From: Halomarina oriensis
Lineage (GTDB): Archaea > Halobacteriota > Halobacteria > Halobacteriales > Haloarculaceae
DNA: 64,000 nt
Assembly: GCF_009791395.1 (NCBI RefSeq)
Contig: NZ_WSZK01000015.1
Location: forward strand, 434,001 to 498,000
Direction: 5' to 3'
Made by a program: the position numbers and the translations under genes. The stretch's first letter is position 1, and each line of letters begins with the position of its first letter. A model generated the notes under the pieces. The model was not told the origin of the DNA. It saw only the letters and a list, made by a program, of their open reading frames with translations, and ran no database searches. Below are positions 50,237 to 52,668 of the stretch, piece after piece.

Positions 50237-50692
50237 ATGCGACTCGTCGAACAGACCGACTGGAACGACTGTGGGGCGGCCTGTCTGGCGACGGTGACGG
50301 GCGACTCGCTCGCCGGCATCAAACGGCACCTCGACGTGCCGACGCCACACGGACAGCTCGAAGCGTACCTCGACGCTCACGCCCTCCCCAACGACCACGT
50401 CACGGTCCGTGGCGAACCGACGGTGCGAACGCTCTCCCGACAGCATCGGCCGTTCGCCCGGAGCCTGCCGTTCGAGCGCCGGACCCTGCTCCTCTCGGTG
50501 GCCTCCCCCGCCCGAACCATCGACTGGCACGCCGTCGTCCTCCACCGGGGACGTGTCCTCGACCCACAGGGCGAGTTCGACTGGACCGCCCTCTCCCGGA
50601 GTCGCTGTATCTGGGCGACCGAAGTGTACCCCGACGAACGGCCGACGGCGGCGCGGACGGCACGGCCGGGCGTCGCGGTCGGAAGCGACTGA
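50237..50692 (+). CDS. Stand-alone C39-like papain-fold peptidase domain protein
   Basis: This 151-residue protein begins MRLVEQTDWNDCGAACLATV. That phrase, D-C-G-x-A-C-L, is the Cys-helix signature of C39 peptidases, which trim leader peptides of exported peptides. Further on DWHAVVLHRGRVLDPQGEF supplies the His and Asp partners in the right order. It is the size of an isolated C39 domain with no ABC transporter attached. It could instead be a deamidase or transglutaminase-like relative; no substrate peptide is seen nearby. Confidence 0.6.
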   Translation: MRLVEQTDWNDCGAACLATVTGDSLAGIKRHLDVPTPHGQLEAYLDAHALPNDHVTVRGEPTVRTLSRQHRPFARSLPFERRTLLLSVASPARTIDWHAVVLHRGRVLDPQGEFDWTALSRSRCIWATEVYPDERPTAARTARPGVAVGSD

Positions 50693-50801
50693 GTGCGCAC
50701 GCCGACGACGAGTGCCGGGCGGGAACCGTGCGACCGGGCGCTAACACCGGTATCGGGACGTCCGAGCGACAGCCGCGCCGAACCGGCCGCTCGAACGAGA
50801 A

Positions 50802-50815
50802 TTAGACTCGTCTAA
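50802..50815. promoter_or_regulatory. Palindromic operator-like site upstream of the metal transporter
   Basis: TTAGAC-TC-GTCTAA is a perfect 6-bp inverted repeat with two spacer bases, about 20 bases upstream of a TATA-like sequence. Such TTAG...CTAA palindromes resemble binding sites of DtxR/MntR-family metal regulators. This fits the encoded transporter, but no regulator gene is nearby. Binding is inferred. Confidence 0.5.
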
Positions 50816-50832
50816 ACATCCGATTCGAGGGA

Positions 50833-50841
50833 TAGTATTTT
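50833..50841 (+). promoter_or_regulatory. TATA-like box of the metal transporter operon
   Basis: TAGTATTTT lies 36-44 bases before the ATG of the leader ORF and about 20 bases after the palindrome, in an otherwise GC-rich stretch. The spacing allows a short untranslated leader of about 10-12 bases with AAGGA near the start codon. Confidence 0.45.
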
Positions 50842-50876
50842 GTAGTTCGCGCACCCACAGACGAGCAAGGAAGCTC

Positions 50877-50960
50877 ATGAAGCTCGGTTCTACGCCACGT
50901 CGTTCGGCGGTCGGTTCGCCGGACGAGGAGAGTCTGTCGGAGGTGTCGTCGGTCCCATGA
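50877..50960 (+). CDS. Short leader ORF coupled to the metal transporter
   Basis: A frame of 27 codons, MKLGSTPRRSAVGSPDEE and then a Ser/Glu-rich end, finishes with a TGA overlapping the transporter ATG (ATGA). AAGGA precedes its ATG. The coupling suggests that ribosomes finishing here re-initiate on the transporter. It might instead be part of the transporter 5' region without a peptide function. No sequence family is known to me. Confidence 0.4.
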   Translation: MKLGSTPRRSAVGSPDEESLSEVSSVP

Positions 50961-52225
50961 CGCAACAGGGGCCCGTCGAGAACCTGTTGGTACAGTTCAA
51001 CCTGAGTCTGCCGGAGGTCTGGGAGATATTCATCTACTCCGTGCGAGACGGGTTCGTCCAGGTCAGCGCGTTCGTCGCCATCACGGTGCTGCTGTTCAGC
51101 TACGTGCAGTACCGGACCGGCGGACGCATCGTGACGTTCCTGGAAGACAACGAACGGCTTCAGCCGCTAGCCGGCGCGCTGCTCGGACTGACACCCGGCT
51201 GTGGGGGAGCCATCATCGCCATGCCGCTGTACATCCGGGGGTCCATCAGCTTCGGCACCGTCGTGGCGACGCTCGCCGCGACGGCCGGCGACGCGGCGTT
51301 CGTCATCATCGCGCTGGCCCCCGAGGCCGCGCTGTACGCCTACGGTATCGCGTTCGTCGCGGCGGTGCTGTTCGGCTACGCCATCGACGTCTGGGGGTTG
51401 GGCGTCGGGCGCGTCGACCGCGCCGTCGAGCGTATCGGCCGACCGATGACCGACGGCGGGTTCGCCACCACGAGCGTCGACGACGACAGTCCCAGCGTCG
51501 CGGGCTACGACCCGGACGGACACGACGACTGCCACCGTCCCGGCACCACCAGCGCCGACGACGGAGTCATGACACCTCTCAGCCACGCGGCCCACGTCGT
51601 CTGGTGGGTCGTCGCCGTCGCCGGTCTCGTCGCCGGCGTCACCTATCTGGCACGGGGCGCACCCGAGGTGCCACTGGAACTCGCTCCGACGTTCTTCGGC
51701 CTGTTCACCGTCGCCGGCATCGCCGGGACGGCGCTCTCGTTCTACCTCCACTTCTTCGGCCGACGGTACATCGGCGAGGGGGAGGCCGGACGCATCCGTG
51801 ACGACTTCCAGAGCGCCTACGAGACGTTCCAGCACGCCGCGATGGAGACGAGCATGGTGACCGTCTGGGTCATCGGTGCGTACCTCGTCTACGAGTACGG
51901 CGTCGTCGTGTTCGCACTGGACATCGGCGCACTCACCGCGGCCGCAGGGGTACTCGCCCCCATCGCCGGCGCGCTGCTGGGACTCATCCCCGGCTGTGCC
52001 CCACAAATCGTCTTCGCGGGTCTGTACGCCGAGGGAGCCATCCCGTTCTCGGCGCTCACGGCCAACGCCATCAGCCAGGACGGCGACGCGCTGTTCCCGC
52101 TGCTGGCCATCGACATGAAGGCGGCCATCATCGCCACCATCTACACGACGATTCCCGCGCTCATCACCGGCGTCCTGCTCTACTACTTCTGGCCGTTCGC
52201 GGAGTTCGGCTTCGGGGTGCTGTGA
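50957..52225 (+). CDS. Putative manganese/heavy-metal exporter, 10-TM ArsP_2-like family
   Basis: This 422-residue membrane protein has two matching halves. Each has the hallmark loop with PGC: GALLGLTPGCGGAIIAMPLY in the first, and GALLGLIPGCAPQIVFAGLY in the second. The rest is predicted helix, with a hydrophilic loop of about 60 residues in the middle that includes Asp/His-rich GHDDCHRPG. This matches the putative 10-TM heavy-metal exporter family. It is followed by a UspA gene and preceded by a metalloregulator-like palindrome. Metal identity is inferred. Confidence 0.75.
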   Translation: MTQQGPVENLLVQFNLSLPEVWEIFIYSVRDGFVQVSAFVAITVLLFSYVQYRTGGRIVTFLEDNERLQPLAGALLGLTPGCGGAIIAMPLYIRGSISFGTVVATLAATAGDAAFVIIALAPEAALYAYGIAFVAAVLFGYAIDVWGLGVGRVDRAVERIGRPMTDGGFATTSVDDDSPSVAGYDPDGHDDCHRPGTTSADDGVMTPLSHAAHVVWWVVAVAGLVAGVTYLARGAPEVPLELAPTFFGLFTVAGIAGTALSFYLHFFGRRYIGEGEAGRIRDDFQSAYETFQHAAMETSMVTVWVIGAYLVYEYGVVVFALDIGALTAAAGVLAPIAGALLGLIPGCAPQIVFAGLYAEGAIPFSALTANAISQDGDALFPLLAIDMKAAIIATIYTTIPALITGVLLYYFWPFAEFGFGVL

Positions 52226-52668
52226 TGTACGACCGTATCCTCGCGCCGACCGACGGGAGCGACCCCGCGACGGCCGCCGTCCGCCACGCCCTCGCCCTCG
52301 CCCGGACGACCGGAGCGACGGTCCACGCCGTCTACGTCCTCGACACCCGGACGGGGTTCCTGACCGTCTCGAAGGACGAGGTCCGCGGTGCACTCCGCGA
52401 GGTGGGCGAGGACGCCGCCACGACGATACTGAACGAGGTCGAACGACTCGCAACCGACGCCGACGTCGAACTCGTGACCGAAGTCGTCGACGGCGCTCCC
52501 GACCAGGCTATCCTCGACTACGCCGCCGACCACGACGTGGACCACATCGTCGTCGGCACCCACGGACGGACGGGACTCGAACGCCGCCTCCTCGGGAGCG
52601 TCACCGAACGGGTAATCGGCGGTGCGTCCGTCCCGGTGACGGCCGTCCACGGCGACGACGCGGACTGA
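52225..52668 (+). CDS. Universal stress protein (UspA family)
   Basis: This 147-residue protein has the UspA alpha/beta fold: MYDRILAPTDGSDPATAAV, VHAVYVLDTRT, and the ATP-binding G-x2-G-x9-G(S) motif in GTHGRTGLERRLLGSVTERV. ATP-type UspA proteins often bind near membrane transporters and modulate them. It follows the exporter with overlapping codons (TGATG), so it may serve that transporter. An alternative GTG start lies one codon upstream. Confidence 0.88.
   Translation: MYDRILAPTDGSDPATAAVRHALALARTTGATVHAVYVLDTRTGFLTVSKDEVRGALREVGEDAATTILNEVERLATDADVELVTEVVDGAPDQAILDYAADHDVDHIVVGTHGRTGLERRLLGSVTERVIGGASVPVTAVHGDDAD

Follow-up and report, generated by a model that had tools for sequence, protein, structure and literature searches.

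A conserved leader ORF that probably couples a metal-regulated promoter to PF11449 transporter genes in haloarchaea

Introduction

Archaeal regulons of the MntR/SirR type (DtxR family) have reportedly been treated by Leyn and Rodionov in 2015, and the operator considered herein may already be described there. Such regulons possess a palindromic operator, an autoregulated DtxR-family gene and transporter targets of manganese or zinc type, and passages on Halobacterium SirR (PMC3600143) describe this protein as an Mn(II)-dependent autorepressor whose mutant has elevated manganese uptake genes. The locus analysed here shares the operator, regulator-gene and target properties, but adds a leader ORF and, in a sister clade of the transporter, a start codon placed inside the operator. 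A search of the open full-text literature returned no mention of an MntR/SirR leader ORF or of an operator-internal start codon.

Further precedents concern translation. Passages of work on overlapping gene pairs in Haloferax volcanii and E. coli (PMC6728339, PMC10666635) describe termination–reinitiation at NTGA overlaps with a Shine–Dalgarno (SD) motif inside the upstream frame, and 13 of 14 tested pairs from these two organisms were strictly coupled (PMC6728339). The same overlap and internal motif occur at the present locus; compared with the pairs in those passages, however, the upstream frame is short, variable in length, devoid of a conserved product and fixed to a promoter. Short ORFs at the 5′ end of an mRNA that serve a downstream gene are likewise on record: a 2025 review raises, as a proposal, that uORFs may deliver ribosomes to a coupled gene (PMC12548453), and 5′-terminal uAUG ORFs are described for E. 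coli (PMC4965119). As far as passages of these two sources extend, the present case differs from them in spanning many haloarchaeal families and two unrelated transporter families, and in being tied to a metal operator. In passages of a Haloferax volcanii study (PMC4983044), 72 % of protein-coding transcripts are leaderless and long 5′-UTRs harbour 16 small ORFs, which at 15–31 aa resemble the leaders described here; set against those passages only, it is for the present leaders that conservation and a stop/start overlap are known.

The same search yielded no recognised description of conserved adaptor ORFs, or of an operator-embedded leader start, in archaea. The parts of the system are known and their combination is apparently new, the novelty being the conservation of the leader, its recurrence at GDT1 genes and the embedding of a start codon in the operator. 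It would provide an archaeal, conserved and testable case of a short ORF that is kept for the act of translation and not for its product, with one compact element joining transcriptional metal control to translational coupling. It would also extend a probable manganese regulon to haloarchaeal PF11449 and GDT1 transporters, and it bears on gene finding, in that such leaders may be functional despite unconserved peptides.

Organization of the locus

The window, by which is meant the whole 64-kb stretch of DNA analysed, belongs to a 4.07 Mb genome in 50 contigs, judged by its relatives to be that of a haloarchaeon. The original prediction named a palindrome, a TATA-like box, an AAGGA motif and a 27-codon ORF ending in ATGA with the start of a transporter gene, and every one of these elements is present (Table 1). 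Beyond that first reading lie the second half-site, the SD-like motif within the leader and the leader ORF as a family-wide device. The transporter matches PF11449 with an E-value of 1.9e-119 and 399.5 bits (cut-off 32.5), residues 22–412 aligning to positions 3–359 of the 359-position profile, and NCBIfam NF037962 with an E-value of 4.8e-84; comparison with PDB chains gave no match up to E 1. A universal-stress-protein gene (52222–52668) starts at the transporter stop with no gap and is probably co-translated with the transporter. From the usual spacing between TATA box and start at archaeal promoters, transcription in the window is predicted to begin at about 50862–50868.

Table 1. Features of the leader and transporter region (window positions; empty cells, nothing assigned)
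Feature	Position	Strand	Remarks
Operator palindrome TTAGAC-TC-GTCTAA (TTAGACTCGTCTAA)	50802–50815		Predicted MntR/SirR (DtxR-family) type; conserved at homologous loci, site also at a DtxR-family gene
Second half-site TTCGA	50824–50828	+	22 nt from operator start, adjoins BRE; class A column conservation
BRE-like purine stretch and TATA-like box	50829–50842	+	TATTTTG at 50836–50842; spacing similar in class A loci
AAGGA	50867–50871		Precedes leader ATG at 50877
Leader (adaptor) ORF, 27 codons (MKLGSTPRRSAVGSPDEESLSEVSSVP)	50877–50960	+	Position and overlap conserved, peptide not
GGAGGTG, SD-like	50939–50945	+	Within leader ORF, 5′ of transporter start
ATGA overlap (−4 nt)	50957–50960		Leader stop TGA 50958–50960, transporter ATG 50957–50959
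PF11449 (ArsP_2) membrane transporter, 422 aa	50957–52225	+	Pfam and NCBIfam matches

The operator and its regulon

As a bare pattern the palindrome is not very rare: the 64-kb window contains 39 perfect 6-2-6 inverted repeats, only one of which has at least four A/T per arm, and 0.72 matches to the operator motif are expected per 64 kb when up to two mismatches are allowed. Across the 4.07-Mb genome, exact TTAGACNNGTCTAA is found at one place and, with up to one mismatch, at four, against none for the reversed control, whilst exact TTAGAYNNNTCTAA has two sites only, one 5′ of the transporter and the other 5′ of a DtxR-family gene. What raises the palindrome above chance is its conservation across homologous loci. 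Out of 391 genomes sampled across the class, 120 contained homologues of the PF11449 transporter, as did 14 GTDB loci, and TTAGN6CTAA lies upstream (up to 420 nt from the aligned start) in 125 of the 135 homologous loci fetched, a set that contains near-duplicates. The other ten comprise seven with TTTGN6CTAA, two with a site just past the 420-nt limit and one, the distant paralogue L137, with none.

Control by a metalloregulator, as originally proposed, gains comparative support from the occurrence of the same site before the regulator gene itself and before several families of metal transporter; when looked for at other transporter promoters, it was found to precede ZnuA-type and GDT1 genes in relatives. 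The second exact site of the host genome is situated 3 nt 5′ of the start codon of this MntR/SirR-like DtxR-family gene, an ORF with PF01325, PF02742 and FeoA (1518–2225 of locus L004). Amongst 40 relatives, TTAGAYNNRTCTAA occurs zero to three times per genome and is present in 30. From 29 such loci, one per genome, ten precede DtxR-family genes, five ZnuA-type genes, four GDT1 and four PF11449 genes, the rest being three before a Tat-type protein (L150, L152, L166) and three unassigned (L143, L163, L168); Pfam checks covered two GDT1 and four ZnuA-type genes, the others being judged by sequence likeness. Judged from these comparisons, the operator appears to define a metal regulon, and this part of the interpretation is of a known kind and very likely right. 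The Tat-type protein of L152, the only one of the three checked, matches multicopper oxidase and is perhaps a manganese oxidase. The CDF gene of L003, whose site has one mismatch, was rejected as a regulon member, sites of that looseness being at chance level (six forward matches against five in the control), and a one-mismatch site at L002, to which no gene was assigned, was likewise treated as chance.

With regard to the metal, the candidate regulator carries Asp where ScaR has Glu (aDvleh and aEvleh, respectively), the position at which iron-type DtxR proteins have Cys, and its best NCBIfam model is MntR, under the cut-off (192.7 of 350 bits). The protein MneA is a manganese exporter. According to passages of PMC7380456, MneA of Vibrio cholerae belongs to the GDT1 members, and this, together with the Mn(II) dependence of Halobacterium SirR in the passages of PMC3600143, makes manganese the likeliest metal. 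The genes that share the site lend good support to an operator for a metalloregulator, probably one that answers to manganese.

The original prediction called the transporter a metal exporter. The family assignment stands, PF11449 being labelled a putative heavy-metal exporter; the word exporter is a label of the family, and outward transport by this protein is putative. A contrary reading, in which the transporter serves uptake of manganese (or another metal) and is repressed by the metal-bound regulator together with ZnuA-type uptake genes, falls somewhat short of an even chance. In its favour are the position of the sister-clade operator over the predicted transcript start, the presence of the site at ZnuA-type genes, and the rise of manganese uptake genes in Halobacterium on loss of the autorepressor SirR (passages of PMC3600143); the PF11449 label speaks against it, as does that of GDT1, which has the same site and is labelled a divalent cation/proton antiporter. 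As uptake concerns function and not architecture, it is compatible with a leader that acts as an adaptor ORF.

Promoter geometry

Homologous loci display two arrangements. In class A, to which the window belongs, the order is palindrome, TTmGA at +22, purine-rich BRE and TATA box, with column conservation across 31 loci of T in 31 at operator +22, T in 29 at +23 and G in 29 at +25. In class B, the sister clade, most loci have an AT-rich TATA-like stretch beginning 26 to 34 nt 5′ of the palindrome, so that the predicted transcript start falls on the palindrome. The window thus has its operator upstream of the TATA box, whereas that of the sister clade coincides with the predicted start of transcription. 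Activation, as read from an operator upstream of the TATA box, was dropped as an explanation, ZnuA-type genes having both geometries. In a midpoint-rooted protein tree the class A and class B clades split at 100/100 support, and four class B loci (L025, L033, L037 and L046) belong to the class A clade by protein.

Conservation of the leader ORF

The 42 class A loci, from which L131 (disrupted gene, first ATG at operator +60, gap 34) and the distant paralogue L134 are excluded, reduce to 32 non-redundant loci and, for the phase test, to 31 on removal of the bacterial L014 (5-codon ORF, gap 108); for L009 the operator was chosen manually. In all 31, the first ATG at or beyond operator +60 falls at +68 to +77, as against about 10 % in shuffles. 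The leader of 25 loci ends at −4/−1 relative to the transporter start, where 6.8 are expected with length and phase randomised (P = 1e-12), and within −4 to +5 in 30 of 31, where 7.8 are expected (P = 3e-18), both P values being nominal, with common descent ignored. Leaders that do not overlap end 1 nt before the start in L006, L021 and L044, 2 nt before it in L009 and 5 nt before it in L024. Lengths range from 20 to 74 codons (5 in the exception L012), and 27 of 31 leaders are in phase 2; this constancy of phase despite many leader lengths is a better argument than the P values. In L012, the 5-codon ORF leads through ATGA to a 33-codon ORF that ends near a transporter start, both lying between operator and transporter.

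These counts bear on the view that the leader ORF has arisen by chance, a GC-rich leader seldom having stops and NTGA being common, such that no selection would be needed. When frame and NTGA were fixed, as in the first null model, most shuffled leaders did stay open, with 25 of 32 seen and 19.1 expected; this model is uninformative for phase and was replaced. In addition, a crude, home-made gene caller run on 464 kb of the host genome gave 205 genes preceded by 110 nt or more of free DNA, of which three combine an AT-rich box, an ATG ORF of 5–60 codons and a −4/−1 overlap, the window transporter and a SurE-like gene being two of these; a count so low also indicates that the pattern is rare outside these families. 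Once phase is randomised, however, the 6.8 loci expected stand against the 25 observed, the phase is held across many leader lengths, and the arrangement recurs independently in the sister clade and at GDT1 genes, leaving chance an improbable explanation. The translational coupling put forward in the original prediction is, measured against this phase-randomised null, strongly supported by phase conservation across the loci compared. The −4/−1 overlap and the SD motif in the upstream frame, by which coupled pairs are recognized, are both found in the window (ATGA and GGAGGTG).

Peptide, RNA and ribosome-binding signals

Comparison of the leaders indicates that what is conserved is an architecture and not a peptide. 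Differences between three pairs of close leaders are distributed 10/11/20 over codon positions 1, 2 and 3, compared to 9/1/22 in the transporter, and strong conservation in the 16-codon leaders of class B (42 compared) is confined to the ends, namely the ATG together with the operator half, a stretch resembling GGTGAG, and the TGA. Were the leader an attenuator or a regulatory peptide that responds to some signal through its sequence, the conserved start and stop positions would be accounted for, as would the likeness of some leaders, such as those of L013 and L018 from Halococcus, which share MNDNxRSSECI; yet there is no conserved peptide across loci, changes at codon position 2 are as frequent as at position 1, and the region 50650–51100 has neither an Rfam match nor a marked fold (z −0.30), which renders this reading slightly less probable still than chance. 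The Rfam comparison of 50650–51100 extended up to E 1, and a riboswitch was rejected on its outcome; the predicted RNA fold is no better than shuffles.

The AAGGA motif had been offered as the ribosome-binding site of the leader, an assignment that is not upheld: of the 31 class A loci two, one of them that of the window, have an SD-like motif before the leader start, and passages of PMC6728339 report that SD motifs in haloarchaeal 5′-UTRs do not function in de novo initiation. At 15 of the 31, an SD-like motif lies within 22 nt of the transporter start. AAGGA is not conserved, and the important motif is probably GGAGGTG within the leader; the rarity of SD motifs at the leader with their greater frequency at the transporter fits near-leaderless initiation followed by reinitiation.

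Leader ORFs in the sister clade and at GDT1 genes

The class B set consists of 84 loci, without the bacterial L014–L016 and the distant paralogues L133, L134, L135, L137 and L138. The first ATG resides within the palindrome in 76 of them (59 at +6, 17 at +4), and the leader ends at −4 in 48, −8 in 18, −11 in five, +1 in four, −1 in two and −7 in one, with six misfits. After thinning to 64 non-redundant loci, the ATG is embedded in 56, whilst the leader ends at −4/−1 in 34 (11.4 expected) and within −11 to +5 in 58 (20.4 expected). Two class B loci, L058 and L079, have no leader, their first ATG being in the transporter's own frame such that the transporter starts directly, and no coupled leader ORF was seen at the bacterial L014–L016; from these loci, the leader is not indispensable.

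The GDT1 set was not thinned and comprises 34 loci, 30 from among the matches listed from 219 matching genomes and four from the operator search. Fifteen of these 34 listed loci directly follow an mntR-like gene, 17 have the operator and two have neither. In 16 of the 17 operator-driven loci, again among the matches listed, a short ORF starts at operator +21 to +28 and ends at −4 to +4 of the gdt1 start, and at these genes the adaptor ORF may stand in for the upstream mntR gene. The mntR-like genes are a within-regulon control: by eye, the 11 compared have no leader ORF, each gene using the first start codons that follow its operator.

Proposed mechanism

The preferred interpretation, to which a probability of about 0.76 is given, is that of a metal-regulated promoter followed by a near-leaderless adaptor ORF that hands ribosomes over by termination–reinitiation. 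An MntR/SirR-type regulator of the DtxR family would bind the palindrome and the half-site at 50824, beside the BRE and TATA box, presumably in response to manganese. The transcript would begin just 5′ of the leader ATG, and ribosomes would enter the leader ORF in near-leaderless fashion and, having terminated at ATGA, start again on the transporter with the help of GGAGGTG. The leader peptide would be a by-product, selection acting on where the leader starts, on its frame staying open and on the overlap of its stop with the transporter start. Against this interpretation count the presence of an SD-like motif in no more than 15 of 31 class A leaders, the leaders that stop short of an overlap, the chained ORFs of L012 and the loci that lack a leader. 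Comparison amongst loci shows the operator, spacing, frame and overlap to be conserved, and the coupled leader ORF is very likely right as an architecture.

A broader proposal, which could go either way, is that product-free adaptor ORFs in haloarchaea form a standing interface between promoter and transporter, absorbing first codons dictated by the operator and passing ribosomes on. That operator DNA dictates the first codons would follow from near-leaderless transcript starts on the operator or next to it. Under the same proposal, it is evenly balanced whether the 14-bp element of the sister clade doubles as operator and ribosome start.

Distribution of the transporter

The PF11449 transporters of L014, L015 and L016, from Balneolota and Salinibacter, fall among the haloarchaeal class A sequences in the tree and have retained TTAGN6CTAA upstream. 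The nesting of the Balneolota sequences in the class A clade suggests that the transporter moved to bacteria. A Haloferacaceae sequence is the nearest relative of the window copy in that tree (81/86), and same-genus relatives of the host have class B copies, such that the window copy was probably acquired or differently retained. Outside these transporter families, a SurE-like gene identified by eye (G000 contig C7, 1–400000, minus strand) has a 13-codon leader with a −4 overlap behind an AT-rich box.
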